Positions 12,823-19,724 of a stretch of DNA of 20,302 nucleotides are shown piece by piece. The notes below the pieces were generated by a model that searched no databases, was not told the DNA's origin, and was given only the letters and a program-made list of their open reading frames with translations. The stretch comes from a virus. The stretch covers positions 1 to 20,302 of the IMG/VR virus record IMGVR_UViG_3300017728_000151. The stretch is one strand, 5' to 3'. A program made the position numbers and the translations under genes. Position 1 is the stretch's first letter; each line of letters opens with the position of its first letter.

Positions 12823-14715
12823 TTAGTATGTTGTTACGCGTCCTTTAATATCAGTATTAGGGTATTTTAATTCAAAAATGCTTGGGTCCATTGATGGGTA
12901 GATTATATCGTTTTTAGTTGCTTTATTAAACCCATATTTATATTGTGAATATCCTAAAAATGTACCACTTTTATTTGTAAATGTTATATCTTCTACTGTT
13001 TGGACACCTTCTATACCTCCAATTAAATTTTTAACTTCAGAAATTATAATAGGTTGATTAATTTGCCACTTATCAATATTAAAATAGTTTTGAATTTCTG
13101 AAACACAATCTAATAATACTCTTTGGTTATTATAATTTTTAAAAACTGTTATTTCAAAATCTAAAGCAAAATTAATTACAAAAGCATCTTTAATATTAAT
13201 AGCATCTGTTAGCATTCTATATTGTTCTAAATATGTAGCTAAATTTGTTTTAGTAGCTGTGTTTAGGGTTGTTACATATTTATTTGAATCATATCCTAAA
13301 GTATATAAATTTAAAGCTAAAGGATTAGGAATACGATTTGGTTCGGTTGTTAGAGGTGATATTTGATCATCTTGTGTTATATAAGCTTTAGCAACTCTAC
13401 CAAATTTAGGGGGCATAGATAATGTTCTTATAATATAATCATCTTTAGTTACTGTTCTTTGTTGAGCTGAAAAATGAGCTGCTGTATTAAGTCTAATGTC
13501 TTCAATAGAATCTCCTGCTCCACCACCTTTTGCTGCTTGTACATTTGTAGATAATATACTAGATTTAACAAAATTTAACATACTTGGGTTAATATTAGGA
13601 TTATTAGTTATAGATAATGTTTCTTTTTCTGTAATAGTATTACTGTTAACATTAGAATCTATACCACCCCCTATTAAATAAGTAACAGTTAGTGTTGTAT
13701 TTGAAGGGACTTGTCCATATGCTTTTGTATATAAAAAATTGGATGGGTCATAAGCAGTATCTAATTTACTTCTTCCATCTTTAATTCCTAATCCAATATT
13801 ATCGGGATTAGGTATTATTTGTTCATCAGCTTTATCACTAGTACCCGCCCCAAATTGAATTTCTAATTGATTATTTGGCTTTACTCTAGTAATAAATCTT
13901 CTTGGTACTTTTTTTAGTTTTAAAAGATAGGGGGTTTGTTGATTGTAACTCTGTAAATCAGGATCATTAGCTGCTGTGTTTTCTATAGGTTCAAATATAG
14001 TATCTTGTGCTAAATAAGGTACTTCAGAATAAGTATTTCCATCTGAATCTATTATAGATTCTATTGATATAATATTAGTATCGAATAATGTTAATGTTTT
14101 AAATTTTTCAACATCTCCTATTGTGAAAGTTTGTGTTTTAGTTTCAGCAGAAATAGCATTAACTGATTTTTTAAGTAAAAAATATTGTGGATTATTTGAA
14201 GAATCATATTGATATATACTTATTTCAGTTGGGTCAAAAGAAGAAGAAAAATCAAATCTTACATCATTTGTTATATAAAAAGAAGGACCTTCAGTTGATG
14301 AAAAAGTCGAATTTTCATTTATTGTTAAACCATAGTCATAATCAGGTTGGTATATAGAACCATTTAGTTTAGAAGGAACTAATTGAGTGATATCTAAAGT
14401 TACGTTAGCTGCATTAGTTACAGATGGTTTATATCCTAGTGTATAAGCTAAATTATATAAATTTTCTCTATCTTGAGCTAAATTTAAAAATGATTCTCTT
14501 AATTGAGTATCTGTATAGAATGATAAAACATCTCCTACGTAAGCAGCCATCTCTAAAAACATCATACCAGGATTCCCTTCACTAAAATCATTAAAATTTT
14601 CAGGAAAATAAGTTTGAGTAAATTCTATAAGTTGATTTTTAAAAGAATTATAATCTTTACTTAGATATTTAACATCTTTATCTTGTGTTTTATTTGATAC
14701 TTTATTATAAGCCAT
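12823..14715 (-). CDS. gp6: Baseplate wedge protein gp6 (baseplate J-like)
   Basis: This 630-residue protein is close to T4 gp6 (660) in length. The N-terminal region is characteristic: LSKDYNSFKNQLIEF (18-32), YFPENFNDFSEGNPGMMFLE (36-55) and AAYVGDVLSFYTDTQLRESF (57-76). The central baseplate-J-type features are also present: LEIQFGAGT at 284-292, GGGAGDSIEDIRLN at 397-410 and QQRTVTKDDYIIR at 418-430. In T4, gp6 dimers form the inner ring of wedges around the hub and bind gp25 and gp53. The gp25 gene directly upstream overlaps the gp6 start by one base (TAATG), so the two wedge partners are translationally coupled. The reading frame is intact. The ATG at 14715 fits the family's usual N-terminus. 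Confidence 0.95.
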   Translation of the reverse strand: MAYNKVSNKTQDKDVKYLSKDYNSFKNQLIEFTQTYFPENFNDFSEGNPGMMFLEMAAYVGDVLSFYTDTQLRESFLNLAQDRENLYNLAYTLGYKPSVTNAANVTLDITQLVPSKLNGSIYQPDYDYGLTINENSTFSSTEGPSFYITNDVRFDFSSSFDPTEISIYQYDSSNNPQYFLLKKSVNAISAETKTQTFTIGDVEKFKTLTLFDTNIISIESIIDSDGNTYSEVPYLAQDTIFEPIENTAANDPDLQSYNQQTPYLLKLKKVPRRFITRVKPNNQLEIQFGAGTSDKADEQIIPNPDNIGLGIKDGRSKLDTAYDPSNFLYTKAYGQVPSNTTLTVTYLIGGGIDSNVNSNTITEKETLSITNNPNINPSMLNFVKSSILSTNVQAAKGGGAGDSIEDIRLNTAAHFSAQQRTVTKDDYIIRTLSMPPKFGRVAKAYITQDDQISPLTTEPNRIPNPLALNLYTLGYDSNKYVTTLNTATKTNLATYLEQYRMLTDAINIKDAFVINFALDFEITVFKNYNNQRVLLDCVSEIQNYFNIDKWQINQPIIISEVKNLIGGIEGVQTVEDITFTNKSGTFLGYSQYKYGFNKATKNDIIYPSMDPSIFELKYPNTDIKGRVTTY

Positions 14716-15122
14716 TAGTTAAAATTTAATTGTATATTATCAGTAGAATTATCTAGTAAAAATCTATAAGTTATACTAATAAAAATAGTATGTCCATCTT
14801 CGGATAATCCTGTTCTAAGGTTTGCTAAAACTATATTAGGAATATATATATTTATTTGTTGAGTGATTTTTTCTTCTAATAATTCTAAATTTACTTGTTG
14901 TTCAAATAAAAGATTTTTTAAACCTACTCCAAAATTAGGTAAATTTACTCTTTCTCCTTGTTGAGTTAATAAAAGATTTATTAAATTAGCTTTTGCTTGA
15001 TCTTTTTCAGTTTGGGTACCTTTAAATAAATTTGTTTCATCCAAGGGAAAAGCTACCCCAATCGTAACATTTTTGTTAAGATCTAAGGGACTTATTCTTT
15101 TTACTCCTTGGATTATTGGCAT
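14715..15122 (-). CDS. gp25: Baseplate wedge protein gp25 (GPW/gp25 family)
   Basis: This 135-residue protein is almost the length of T4 gp25 (132). It has the family signature LLLTQQGERVNLPNFG (residues 50-65), followed by GLKNLLFE (67-74). The GER and P.FG elements are the usual hallmark. The protein helps join the wedge to the inner tail tube and sheath and is related to the W protein of P2 and to type VI secretion TssE. Its start overlaps the upstream stop (TAATG), and its own stop overlaps the gp6 ATG in the same way. Before its ATG is AAGGA with 5-base spacing. This is one of only two Shine-Dalgarno-like sequences here, but it lies in the Lys/Gly codons ending the upstream gene and may be chance. 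Confidence 0.95.
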   Translation of the reverse strand: MPIIQGVKRISPLDLNKNVTIGVAFPLDETNLFKGTQTEKDQAKANLINLLLTQQGERVNLPNFGVGLKNLLFEQQVNLELLEEKITQQINIYIPNIVLANLRTGLSEDGHTIFISITYRFLLDNSTDNIQLNFN

Positions 15123-15603: not shown

Positions 15604-16572
15604 TTAAGATTCATCATTTGTTGATGTAGAATCAGAATTATTATTAGATAAAAGGAGAGGATTAATTACTTCGTAACTAATTTGTTGACCAAGAGAAAAA
15701 TTTTCTCCTATTTTATATATTCTTTTAACAAGTTTTCCATCACTATAATCTATATTTGGATTTTGTTCTTGTAAAATATTTAAAAGATCTTCATATATGT
15801 TAATAGAAGCATCTAATATATCTTGTTGTTCTAAATTTAAAATATTATTAGGGTCTAAAACTCCCGTACCTGTGTTATCATCTAAACCACTATATAAATT
15901 TAAACATCCTTGTTCAAATTGTAATGATAAATATTGTTGAAATGCCTCTAATTTTTCTACTTGAAATAATACTTGTTGTAATTGATTTTTTCCTAAAGAA
16001 GTTATACTAACTATTGATGATGCCTGATTTCTATAATTTGCAAACATTGAAGGTAAAATTGCAAATAAAGCTATATATTCTCCAATTTTACCTTTAGCAT
16101 TTTTCTTTTTTTCAGACAATGTATCTATTCCTAAACCTGTACCTATTCCTCCTAATACTGATAATGCTAGGGGGGTTACTGCTACTACTATTTGAAGAAT
16201 TCTTAAAATAGGTTCTATTATTCTTTGTATTCTAGTTATCTGCAGTATAGGACCACCTCCATTTATTATATTTAGTAAGTCATTTTCTGTTTTTTCTAGT
16301 TTTGCTATTCCCTTATTTAATTGGTTTTTTATTCTTTCTATTTTAGCCAATTGAATATCACTATTTTTTCTAAATTTTTCTTTACCCTTTTCACTACAAG
16401 TACCTTCATTAATTTCAGGTGATAATTTTTTTACTAATTCTTGGGGGGTAGGTATTTGTTTTTTTAATTCTCTTAGTTTTTTACCTGCCTCATTTTTAGC
16501 ATTTTTCTTAGCATTATCAATTATAGGGTCTAATTGGGTAAATATTATATTTCTTATTTGTTGTGTTGACAT
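15604..16572 (-). CDS. Hydrophobic, coiled-coil-containing protein in the hub/wedge cluster, unknown function
   Basis: This 322-residue protein is of unknown family. Residues 1-100 are strongly charged and helical (Lys/Glu-rich). Residues about 117-150 form a long hydrophobic segment (IIEPILRILQIVVAVTPLAL, then SVLGGIGTGLGI). A second hydrophobic segment lies at about 164-178 (GEYIALFAILPSMFA). Residues 190-260 are again helical and Gln/Glu-rich, with many Leu. There is no signal peptide at the N-terminus. It lies one base behind the spike-like gene and before the gp25 group, so it belongs to the hub region. Possible roles are a tail-tip component that contacts the host membrane, or a tape-measure or chaperone-like protein. 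The sequence does not decide between these. Confidence 0.65.
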   Translation of the reverse strand: MSTQQIRNIIFTQLDPIIDNAKKNAKNEAGKKLRELKKQIPTPQELVKKLSPEINEGTCSEKGKEKFRKNSDIQLAKIERIKNQLNKGIAKLEKTENDLLNIINGGGPILQITRIQRIIEPILRILQIVVAVTPLALSVLGGIGTGLGIDTLSEKKKNAKGKIGEYIALFAILPSMFANYRNQASSIVSITSLGKNQLQQVLFQVEKLEAFQQYLSLQFEQGCLNLYSGLDDNTGTGVLDPNNILNLEQQDILDASINIYEDLLNILQEQNPNIDYSDGKLVKRIYKIGENFSLGQQISYEVINPLLLSNNNSDSTSTNDES

Positions 16573-16573
16573 T

Positions 16574-17047
16574 TTATACTAATTTAGTATTTAAACTTTT
16601 AATATTTTCAATTTCACTTTTTAATTGTTGTATTTGTGATCTCCTTCTTTGTAATACAGGAGTATTAGCAGGATTAGGTGCAGTAGGAGACGAAGGTACA
16701 GTAACTATATATCCTACCTTATACTCAATATCGTCTAGCATTCCACCTATTAAATCTAACATTTCGTTTAATAAATCTTCTAATTGATCTCCTAATACCG
16801 CGGGTTCTGTAGGGTAAGTATTATCAAATTCTAAACCTAAATATATATTAGGTGAATTTACTACAAATTTACTTTCGTTTTCATCAGGACTAGTATCAAA
16901 ATGAAAACTACCATTAGTACTAAACCCAATAGCTTTATCTGAAAATAATAAGATACTATCTTCTTTAGCATTAAAAATTAATCTATCTGAATTAATTATT
17001 ACTTGGTTTCCTTGATATGTGTTAGGGGATTGTGGTATATATGACAT
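16574..17047 (-). CDS. Small beta-rich spike-like protein, possible C-terminal gp5 equivalent
   Basis: This 157-residue protein has short alternating beta-strand units at residues about 14-52 (NQVIINSDRLIFNAK, then SILLFSDKAIGFST, then GSFHFD). This is the rhythm of a stacked beta-helix or spike. VNSPNIYLG follows (63-71), then PAVLGDQLEDLLNEMLDL (82-99), which recalls the end of gp5-type phage spikes. Residues 130-157 are a charged helix. I do not see the repeated octapeptides of the T4 gp5 needle, so this would be a shorter variant. Its ATG overlaps the stop of the M15 peptidase gene by one base (TAATG), so spike and peptidase are probably made in matched amounts. The role as central spike is inferred from pattern and location. 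Confidence 0.65.
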   Translation of the reverse strand: MSYIPQSPNTYQGNQVIINSDRLIFNAKEDSILLFSDKAIGFSTNGSFHFDTSPDENESKFVVNSPNIYLGLEFDNTYPTEPAVLGDQLEDLLNEMLDLIGGMLDDIEYKVGYIVTVPSSPTAPNPANTPVLQRRRSQIQQLKSEIENIKSLNTKLV

Positions 17048-17613
17048 TATATTAAATTTTCGTCTGCTGAGTTAATACCATGAGTATAATTTCCTTTTCT
17101 ATAAGTATTTTCTGATATAAGTTCTTTATGTAGATTTTCTAATTTACTTGCTACACTATTTAATTTTATATTTTTATCTTCTTTATATGAAATATGGATC
17201 CATGATGTTTTTTTACCTGGTTTAAAAACCCCCAATTCAGGATATTCCCATATAATTTGATAATAATCAGATAAATTATTATAACACCAATTCCAAAGTT
17301 CAGAAGATGGTCTTGAAATTGATATTAAATCAACTGCTTGACCTTTAGTATGAAGTGAATTTTTAACACCAGGAATAGGTTTAATTGAGGCATTTAGCGC
17401 TTTACATCTATAGGCTGAGGTAATTCCTATTTCTTCGGGAAAAGCAGCCATCAAGGGAGATACACATTTAGAAAATAATAATTGTAAATTATTTTTTATA
17501 TATTGTTCTGTTAATATTGGGTCAGAATCTACATCTACACCTGGAATGTTGCTAATTCCTTGGTTTTTAGCTAATTTACTTGCTATTAATTGTTTATATA
17601 AAAATTGTGCCAT
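17047..17613 (-). CDS. M15-type peptidoglycan peptidase, probably tail-associated or endolysin
   Basis: This 188-residue protein carries the full metal-binding signature of zinc D,D-peptidases of family M15 (VanY/endolysin-like, probably M15_3). It shows SAYRC with Arg69, SLHTKGQAVDL with His88 and Asp95 as metal ligands, and SWIHISY with His140 as the third ligand. Glu123 in IWEYPE may be the catalytic acid/base. Such enzymes cleave the stem peptide or cross-link of peptidoglycan. It has no signal peptide or membrane anchor. It lies between a gp5-like hub gene and a spike-like gene. T4 uses a lysozyme domain inside gp5 at this place, so a tail-tip role (local wall opening during infection) is likely. 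A lysis endolysin is the alternative. Upstream is AGGAT at about 7 bases, a weak Shine-Dalgarno candidate. Confidence 0.88.
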   Translation of the reverse strand: MAQFLYKQLIASKLAKNQGISNIPGVDVDSDPILTEQYIKNNLQLLFSKCVSPLMAAFPEEIGITSAYRCKALNASIKPIPGVKNSLHTKGQAVDLISISRPSSELWNWCYNNLSDYYQIIWEYPELGVFKPGKKTSWIHISYKEDKNIKLNSVASKLENLHKELISENTYRKGNYTHGINSADENLI

Positions 17614-17617
17614 ATTT

Positions 17618-18562
17618 TTATCCTATTGGTTCTTCAAAATCTATACTATCGGGTAGATCATTGGGGATACTATTACTATCTCTATTATCGGGTAATATTA
17701 CTTGATCTTCTGTATCTGCTATATCATAATAAGGATTTTCTGTTTCTTCTATTTCGTTTATTTCACTTTGTTGTAATTCTTCTGGTGGTAAATTATTAGG
17801 AGAAGCCATAATAGTATCTTCTTCTATATTTTCGGGCATTTCATTATTATTAATAATTGGTTCTTCTTTAGTTTCCAAAGTTAAATTAGCACCAAAAGAT
17901 AATTGGTATGTAGAAGAAGGAGTAAAATTATCTAATTGTTGATTAGAACATAAATAAATACTTGAATTATCCCCATTTATATCTTCTAATATATGGTCAA
18001 AAGGTTCTCCTTCATTAATTTCTGTTTGTCCATTTCTAATAATAGTTATGGGGTCTCCTAATTCTCCATTATTACTCCATCTATTAGGAATAGCAATATT
18101 ATTATTAGTAGTAGCCCCTAGTCTAACGGAATTACCAAACCTACCTTCTAACATAATATCACCTTCATATGGTCTTAGGGGTCTAATATTTTCTATTTCT
18201 TGAAAATACTCTCCTAACCTAAATTCTCCATTTTCATCTAATACGTTTGGATATGCATTATTATTAGGAGATTTATTTATAGATATAGGAGGTAAATAAT
18301 AAGCTTCAGCATTATTATTTTCATTATATTCTGATGTAGGAGCTCCTAATATATATACTATTTCATTAGCTATGGGGTAATGTGAAATATTATAAAATAA
18401 TGGTTTAGCTGTGGGAAGTTGAGTAAAATCATTATCTATAGGAGTAGAAGTATTTAGGGGTGTATATAAAATAGTTCCAATAGAATTTTCACCCAAATAT
18501 CTTGGGTGATTATTATCTAAAATAATATCTTGTACTCTTACTACCTCTAAATTAGTTTTCAT
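17618..18562 (-). CDS. gp5-like baseplate hub protein (probable OB-fold), with acidic tail
   Basis: This 314-residue protein begins with VRVQDIILDNNHPRYLG (residues 8-24). It has PLFYNISHYPIANEIVYIL near 54-71 and the conserved PYEGDIMLEGRFGNSVRLG at 131-149. I associate this with the N-terminal hub part of gp5-like proteins in marine T4-like phages. In T4, the OB-fold of gp5 connects hub and spike. Residues about 200-230 complete the folded part (SSIYLCSNQQ, then TYQLSFGANLTLE). From about 231 to the end the protein is low-complexity, very acidic and Asn-rich (EEDTIMASPNN, then EINEIEETENPYYD), probably disordered. The gene overlaps the end of the preceding small gene by 11 bases. It lacks the lysozyme domain found in T4 gp5; the peptidase next door seems to take that place. 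Confidence 0.72.
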   Translation of the reverse strand: MKTNLEVVRVQDIILDNNHPRYLGENSIGTILYTPLNTSTPIDNDFTQLPTAKPLFYNISHYPIANEIVYILGAPTSEYNENNNAEAYYLPPISINKSPNNNAYPNVLDENGEFRLGEYFQEIENIRPLRPYEGDIMLEGRFGNSVRLGATTNNNIAIPNRWSNNGELGDPITIIRNGQTEINEGEPFDHILEDINGDNSSIYLCSNQQLDNFTPSSTYQLSFGANLTLETKEEPIINNNEMPENIEEDTIMASPNNLPPEELQQSEINEIEETENPYYDIADTEDQVILPDNRDSNSIPNDLPDSIDFEEPIG

Positions 18563-18929
18563 TTGGTTTTTCTAATTGTTTAGGTTTAGATTCAACAGTT
18601 TTAGCTATTTCTTCAGTTAAATCCTGAAGTTGAGCCATTTCATCTTCTGTTAATAACCCACCATCACCTGAACTTGCTGTACCTGTAGATAAACGTTGTA
18701 CAATAGCTGCCATTTTTATTAATGCATCATCATTTTTAACACTAATTTCCATATATTCTTTAATTAATGGTACTACAACGGTAGCATCACCTAAAGATTG
18801 GACTAGTGGTTTTAATTCTGATATTAAAGAGGCTAATTGTTTAGCTTTTTTCTTTTGATTTCCATGAATATCTTTTAATAAATCAGAAAAAGACACATCA
18901 TCGAATAATACTTGATTTAATGGATCCAT
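18552..18929 (-). CDS. Small helical protein of unknown function upstream of the hub genes
   Basis: This 125-residue, mostly helical, charged protein begins MDPLNQVLFDDVSFSDLLKD. It has a Leu/Ile-rich helix near residues 30-75 (LASLISELKPLVQSLGD, then VVVPLIKEYMEISVKND) and a Gly/Ser-rich linker around 83-91. A second acidic helix follows at 93-110. It has no membrane segment and no recognised family. It lies directly before the hub gene and overlaps it by 11 bases, so its translation is coupled to hub production. That fits a small chaperone or assembly partner, but this is a guess. The ATG at 18929 is 27 bases from the sigma gene and follows a promoter-like motif, so this gene may head the hub transcript. 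Confidence 0.65.
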   Translation of the reverse strand: MDPLNQVLFDDVSFSDLLKDIHGNQKKKAKQLASLISELKPLVQSLGDATVVVPLIKEYMEISVKNDDALIKMAAIVQRLSTGTASSGDGGLLTEDEMAQLQDLTEEIAKTVESKPKQLEKPNEN

Positions 18930-18956: not shown

Positions 18957-19724
18957 TTAAACTCTTACGTATCCTGTTTCTGCATACTCAGTATAAAGTT
19001 TTTTATATAATTTTTTAAGTACTTTAGTTACTTTAGTAATTACAGGAGTATCAACATCTGTTATTTCTCTTATATAGATATAAAGTGCTTTTTTATTAAA
19101 TATTTCTAAATTTTCTCTACGTTTAAAAAGTATATTAATTGCATCACAAACTTTTCTATCTTTATCTTTTTTAAATAATATAAACATATTTTTATCAACA
19201 TATTCTGTAAAATAATCGATAAATTCTTTTATATCTTGTTTACGACCATCTCTACCTAATTGACGTAATACACCATCATCCTCATCTGCTGATAATACGG
19301 GTACTGTTGCTTTTTTCTTTTTATAGTTGTTGTTATTATATAATATAAGATAATTTTTACCTACAATAGAAAAATAACTAAATGCTTTTGAACCTTTTTC
19401 TGGTTTAAAATAATCTAATTTTTCTAAGAAAAAACAACACACTTCATGTTTTAGATCTTCTAACGATTCTACTTCTGTATAATAAAATTTAAATGTATGG
19501 ATTAGATTTTCAGCTAATTTATAAAAAGCATATGCTATACGATCACGATAAATTTCATTTCTTTCTTCTTGATTAGATGAAGATAAATATTCTTTTATAG
19601 CTAAATCTACATCTGAAGTAAAATATTGTTTTTTAGAAGGTTTTCTACCTCTTTTTTTCTTAACAACTGGTTCTGGAGTAAGAGAACCGGAACTAGCCGG
19701 TTCTTGTTTTTTTTCGTTTGACAT
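18957..19724 (-). CDS. gp55: gp55-like sigma factor for late transcription
   Basis: This 255-residue protein resembles T4 gp55 (185 residues), the sigma factor that directs host RNA polymerase to late promoters. The sigma region 2-like core is at residues about 60-135: LAENLIHTFKF (70-80), LEDLKHEVCCFFLEKLDYFK (88-107) and a Tyr/Phe-rich FSYFSIVGKNYLI (115-127). A basic patch NNYKKKKA follows at 132-139. Two additions are visible. The first is an N-terminal basic stretch with KKKRGRKPSKK (22-32), similar to an AT-hook. The second is a C-terminal part (about 165-250) with IREITDVDTPVITKVTKVLK, which could be a helix-turn-helix like sigma region 4. It is followed by structural genes with a shared AT-rich motif, its likely targets. 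Family placement is by pattern; the extra domains are inferred. Confidence 0.8.
   Translation of the reverse strand: MSNEKKQEPASSGSLTPEPVVKKKRGRKPSKKQYFTSDVDLAIKEYLSSSNQEERNEIYRDRIAYAFYKLAENLIHTFKFYYTEVESLEDLKHEVCCFFLEKLDYFKPEKGSKAFSYFSIVGKNYLILYNNNNYKKKKATVPVLSADEDDGVLRQLGRDGRKQDIKEFIDYFTEYVDKNMFILFKKDKDRKVCDAINILFKRRENLEIFNKKALYIYIREITDVDTPVITKVTKVLKKLYKKLYTEYAETGYVRV

Follow-up and report, generated by a model that had tools for sequence, protein, structure and literature searches.

Three consecutive genes in the window, the whole 20,302-base virus record analysed here, probably encode the part of a contractile tail that punctures the cell, a tip split once into separate chains and equipped with a virion-borne peptidoglycan peptidase. 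We propose that the 314-residue protein, with an OB-like barrel, the first beta strands and a linker, would be one half of an ancestral OB-spike protein of the same type as gp5, gpV and VgrG, and that the 157-residue protein would be the other half, with the rest of a short beta-prism and a helical end. Both may assemble into one trimeric device, on which the linker would hold an M15 peptidase encoded in the same operon. The peptidase would ride in the virion and cut the peptide bonds of peptidoglycan during entry, and the separate chains would stand in for the maturation cut of T4 gp5. The larger finding is best read as a tip that was split once and whose enzyme slot is interchangeable. A putative function is thereby given to a family present in hundreds of aquatic viral contigs and annotated as hypothetical in the few isolates that have it. 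The locus suggests that separate chains can make up a puncturing tip, the break falling where a protease acts in T4. It further indicates a site at which wall-cutting domains are swapped in nature, and this opens the function of the maturation cut, as well as the fit between an enzyme and the wall type of its host, to direct testing.

The three genes and their fused relatives

All major genes of the window are located on the minus strand, and the presence there of the three ORFs reported by the first-pass annotation (157, 188 and 314 amino acids) was confirmed. The gene for the first half of the puncturing protein (314 amino acids, 17618–18562; ORF list and tblastn) is separated by 4 nt from the gene of an M15_3 zinc peptidase (188 amino acids, 17047–17613; Pfam PF08291, PHROG 894), which is in a different frame. 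The stop codon of the peptidase gene and the start codon of the second half, the spike part (157 amino acids, 16574–17047; tblastn), overlap by one shared base in the sequence TAATG (17045–17049), as originally read. Joining of the three products by read-through or frameshifting was ruled out by the different frames and the stop codons present. Two baseplate wedge proteins are encoded close by on the minus strand, one gp25-like (14715–15122; PF04965, 2e-10; PHROG 261, 2.3e-15) and one gp6-like (12823–14715; PHROG 219, annotated as baseplate wedge subunit, 1.5e-20), identified as gp6 from its position and length.

The gene upstream of the first half (18552–18929, minus strand) encodes a 125-residue protein without a family, which has the same place in Flavobacterium phage immuto and in locus L004 of the survey described below. 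It is very conserved (95% to L004, pN/pS 0.10). Directly after the spike gene, a 322-residue protein (15604–16572) with charged helices and a hydrophobic stretch evolves far faster than the measured neighbours (54% to L004, pN/pS 0.63); the immuto protein at this position is annotated as a RecN-like ATPase. The region 18957–19724 weakly matched families of sigma factors for phage RNA polymerase, namely PHROG 1740 (E = 0.0025) and, for late sigma, PHROG 234 (E = 0.42), and a gene resembling it is located near the tail-tip genes of immuto and L004.

The two outer proteins were searched with tblastn against 50,697 phage records. The 314-residue protein matched the N-terminal and middle part of one ORF in Microcystis phage Mel-JY01 (E = 3e-14) and in immuto (E = 3e-5), as well as an unannotated 484-kb phage record. 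The 157-residue protein matched the C-terminal part of the same ORFs (Mel-JY01, 5e-15; immuto, 5e-13) and no further phages in these records. In both phage lineages the matches lie back to back in one ORF, of 503 amino acids in Mel-JY01 and 378 amino acids in immuto, and both ORFs are annotated as hypothetical. Since both proteins match adjacent parts of one ORF, a single protein there equals two genes here, with the M15 gene between them. At the level of sequence, these matches show that the outer two proteins are the two halves of what relatives make as a single chain. They also support the earlier proposal that an OB or hub part, a peptidase and a spike part are carried by three genes. Nothing significant was found for either half in Pfam or PHROGs, and no earlier account of a fused or split OB-spike family was found in the open literature searched. 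The tail modules of Mel-JY01 and immuto resemble the window in having the homologous protein in the same gene neighbourhood, and differ from it in that the halves are fused in one ORF with no M15 gene between them. In Mel-JY01, a chitinase/endolysin-like gene, visible in PHROGs only, lies directly downstream of the fused ORF. The host of immuto is Flavobacterium, and relatives were present in genome bins named Winogradskyella and Flavobacteriaceae, and in one named Gammaproteobacteria. The window comes from an uncultured T4-like phage that probably infects Flavobacteria; a Bacteroidota host is likely.

The peptidase and the enzyme slot

The 188-residue protein matched PF08291 (4.5e-8) with 33.6 bits, above the Pfam gathering score of 23.2. 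No lysozyme match that would indicate a T4-lysozyme-like glycosidase was found in it with Pfam, in agreement with the first-pass view that the enzyme is a zinc peptidase and not a glycosidase. In an alignment of 36 relatives, H88, D95, W122, E126, W138 and H140 were invariant. The M15 profile found the carboxypeptidase 1LBU, whose residues 154 and 161, taken by us to be zinc ligands, face H88 and D95 in the alignment. The residues of the predicted zinc site (H88, D95 and H140) are thus in place, and given the invariant residues and the 1LBU match the peptidase would be expected to be active. In L003 (1402–2240), the M15 gene has at its end an insert of approximately 270 bp that lengthens the ORF to 261 amino acids; the ending GACGAAAATTTAATATAATG can be found downstream, a pattern like that left by a small insertion that duplicates its target.

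The best PHROG match of the peptidase was PHROG 894 (4.8e-15), which is annotated as endolysin, and peptidases in 112 other phage records matched it with a best identity of about 34–36%. Both results fit an alternative in which the M15 gene is an ordinary lysis endolysin located between two tail genes, so that only the OB-spike split would be structural. We consider this unlikely in view of what occupies the same place in related loci, how it is joined to the neighbouring parts and how it diverges with them.

Viral contigs were scanned with family alignments, and loci were annotated with profiles of the first half, the spike and M15. The counts are those of a sample and should not be taken as a census; all refer to the matches listed. 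The survey yielded at least about 230 loci, of which at least 213 had both parts (145 fused in one ORF, 68 split); after dereplication at least 160 loci remained (115 fused, 45 split). In the 145 fused loci, 7–27 residues separate the two profile regions and the ORF is without M15. Among the 45 distinct split loci, the slot between the halves was occupied in nearly all. M15 was present in 33 of the 45: as its own gene in 21, preceded by a small linker gene in four, in one gene with the linker in two, and fused to the first half in six (nine loci before dereplication), which counts against a lysis endolysin and argues for incorporation of M15 into the virion. The fused protein of L031, for example, matched M15_3 at 4.6e-14 (Pfam).

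Wall hydrolases other than M15 are shown by their domain matches to occupy the same slot, also as fusions, which again does not fit a lysis gene. They comprise fused Amidase_2 (three of the 45; Pfam, 1e-12 and 7.5e-9; L029 was put in this group by similarity and not by its own scan), C39-like domains (two; C39_2, 6.3e-12 and 2.5e-4, one below the Pfam cut-off), M23 (one; Pfam, 9.9e-8) and an endolysin-like domain (one; L144, endolysin PHROGs, 6e-13), which in our reading would be CHAP-like. According to Pfam, the Amidase_2, M23 and C39_2 domains sit fused at the same place as M15 does in other loci. In a BFVD fold search, a 549-residue protein named GH19 was matched (E = 1.3e-7), which suggests one further class of slot enzyme. 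Three of the 45 loci had unknown slot domains; those in L072 (2593–5004) and L081 (3081–5474) are about 540 residues long, and the one in L077 (5404–7104) contains cysteines. The slot was empty in L025, L083, L085 and L086 (two of the 45 distinct loci), indicating that the enzyme is not indispensable at that place. L025 (334–1803) was placed inside the Amidase_2 group, so that its empty slot appears to reflect a recent enzyme loss or a chimeric contig.

In the loci seen, the border of enzyme and spike invariably coincided with a gene boundary: a fusion of the spike with a recognised enzyme was absent from all 45, and the first half, M15 and the spike did not occur together in any ORF among the loci listed. 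In 35 of the 45, the start of the spike gene overlapped the upstream stop or was at most 5 nt away from it. Beside the fused genes, Pfam named no typical wall hydrolase in 33 downstream proteins. CarboxypepD_reg-like domains were present in six of these 33 proteins, e.g., in L157 (1570–3906).

The linker is a conserved, acidic module of approximately 88 residues with the motif EDxIxxSPxxLPxxELQ...YYDIAxTExQ. Profile searches located it at the C-terminal end of the first gene in the window (residues 227–314 of the 314-residue protein; 17621–17884, minus strand), in a stand-alone gene in L022, L023, L024, L026, L036 and L046, and at the N-terminal end of the M15 gene in L021, L056 and L058. Gene boundaries thus move along a constant order of OB, linker, enzyme and spike. 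The fusions and fissions of OB part, linker and enzyme are good evidence that these parts work together, and a linker that occurs on either side of the gene boundary speaks against an unrelated endolysin gene.

An unrooted tree was constructed from the first half and the spike (90 rows), leaving out enzyme and linker. The 43 rows of the split core grouped as a single clade (SH-aLRT 99) embedded among fused rows, and the SH-aLRT was 89 for a wider set of 46 rows to which the long-branched fused Mel-JY01 belongs. The fused or split state required as few as two changes on this tree and the eleven architecture classes required 16, and a single old event that split the OB part from the spike is supported by these alignments. 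As gpV and VgrG are generally single-chain, this prior knowledge led us to take the fused form as ancestral on the unrooted tree. The M23 locus was placed inside an M15 group (19-row group, 99; nearest neighbours, 80) and one C39-like locus was sister to a linker-M15 locus (support 96), so the content of the slot seems to have been exchanged. The divergence of M15 tracked that of the first half and the spike (Mantel r = 0.65 and 0.67, reached in 0 of 2000 permutations), a co-divergence that likewise weighs against the endolysin reading.

The split tip with a virion-borne peptidase may be one case of a wider design. Among far-T4-like phages, a large and unannotated group would have a tip that serves as a holder for an exchangeable enzyme cartridge: OB and spike parts would have been split once, the slot would have taken up peptidases, amidases and other hydrolases, and an obligatory gene boundary before the spike would replace the proteolytic maturation by which the T4 enzyme is set free. 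We put this generalization forward tentatively, at slightly less than an even chance.

Predicted folds and conservation of the halves

The 314-residue protein consists of an OB-like barrel (approximately residues 1–95), a beta-rich conserved block (approximately 125–215; GDIMLEGRFGNSVRLG...PITIIRNGQ...SSIYL) and the linker. An AlphaFold2 model from 46 sequences contained five strands in residues 6–89 (pLDDT about 80–94) and further strands at 136–205. Its PDB matches were singly insignificant (best E = 0.74). Much of the list consisted of OB-type proteins: RNase II, S17-type ribosomal proteins, a cold-shock domain, RPA and agrin NtA, all of which we take to be OB folds. In the model of the 157-residue protein, approximately 60 beta-rich residues (12–72; strands at 39–43, 47–51 and 60–64) are followed by a helical hairpin (86–111 and 126–146). 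This is a monomer model, which cannot show a trimeric prism, and, as was to be expected from this, Foldseek gave no useful PDB match for it. The description of this protein as a small beta protein holds for the beta-rich segment, whereas about half of the chain is predicted to form the hairpin; the model offers no support for a long beta-helix.

No meaningful match was obtained when each half alone was searched against PDB sequence profiles. With the profile of the fused family, the best PDB match was a VgrG spike at the beta segment (E = 0.07, insignificant alone), and a second VgrG spike was found further down the list (E = 1). DUF2345 matched three of 58 family members (best 4.4e-4), two baseplate PHROGs matched two and one of the 58, respectively, and the BFVD fold search weakly matched proteins named 'baseplate hub subunit and tail lysozyme' (E = 0.066 and 0.74). 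Taken at the level of models, OB and beta-prism folds of the halves are moderately supported. In the fused consensus, the pattern SSIYLTSxQKI / DxILLSSxKSI is repeated, which raises the suspicion that the beta-prism already starts at the end of the first half, and we suspect that the chain break may lie some strands into the prism.

The first-pass annotation had called the 314-residue protein gp5-like, and such a resemblance was not detectable: hhalign against an alignment of six T4-type gp5 proteins gave a probability below 1%, and no sequence homology was detected. This negative comparison, the weakness of the fold matches and the half-helical 157-residue protein would all be compatible with another baseplate component that has a peptidoglycan enzyme attached and is not the central puncturing device. 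That reading appears rather improbable to us, given the predominance of OB folds in the PDB list of the first half, the VgrG spike as the best match of the fused family at the beta segment, the DUF2345 and baseplate PHROG matches in a few members, and the BFVD matches, weak as they are. The pairing with a wall hydrolase is, moreover, typical of gp5-like tips.

Gene order was kept in L002 (100% identical), L003 (94–95%) and L004 (77–88%), and also in dozens of remoter contigs, a repetition that excludes an assembly error. Comparison of the window with L004 indicated purifying selection on the first half (pN/pS 0.32), M15 (0.20) and the spike (0.24), comparable to the gp25-like gene (0.26). That the split is a decayed or mis-assembled single gene has a negligible probability: the window is a metagenomic contig of 20.3 kb and the fused form is commoner (115 vs. 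45 among the matches listed), but the same split recurs in L002, L003, L004 and dozens of distinct contigs, and the three genes have their own start codons and compact junctions, so that conservation across contigs and purifying selection rule it out.

Comparison with known tail tips

T4 gp5 consists of an OB domain (1–129), a lysozyme domain (174–339) and a beta-helix (389–575) (PMC4576200, PMC7650644). Its cleavage site, Ser351/Ala352, lies in the linker that joins the lysozyme to the beta-helix, and both parts stay in the virion (PMC7650644, PMC3004832). The tip in the window shares with gp5 the order of putative OB part, linker, peptidoglycan hydrolase and spike, a chain break between enzyme and spike, which results from proteolysis in T4 and from a gene boundary here, and the proximity to baseplate wedge genes such as gene 6. 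It differs in that gp5 is one gene with a single precursor, whereas three ORFs in different frames are present here; in that the enzyme is an M15 peptidase and not a T4L-like lysozyme; and in that the beta part of the spike is much shorter and followed by helices. The parallel is close in order and in the site of the chain break, and on this evidence the tip would work like gp5. A gene boundary at the place of the gp5 cut may mean, by analogy, that no proteolytic maturation is needed. As the hub ring of T4 is gp27, 'hub' is a loose term for the 314-residue protein, whose counterpart in gp5 is the OB adapter part.

Compared with the spikes of P2 gpV and VgrG, the immuto and Mel-JY01 relatives appear alike in that an OB-like part is directly followed by the spike part in one chain. 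No enzyme domain was detected in these fused chains, and the VgrG and DUF2345 matches are weak. The window is unlike gpV and VgrG in that its chain is split with an enzyme gene in between; the effector domains of VgrG are located at the C-terminal end (PMC3004832). In Anabaena phage A-1(L), gp15 is the hub and gp25 the spike, and enzymes are carried on the trimeric hub protein (PMC10966104). A-1(L) resembles the window in that its tail is contractile, the tip has an OB/beta spike, and domains that cut the wall, a peptidase among them, are found on a separate protein (PMC10966104). In contrast to the window, where OB part and spike flank the enzyme, A-1(L) carries its enzymes on a hub with a barrel domain common in myophages.
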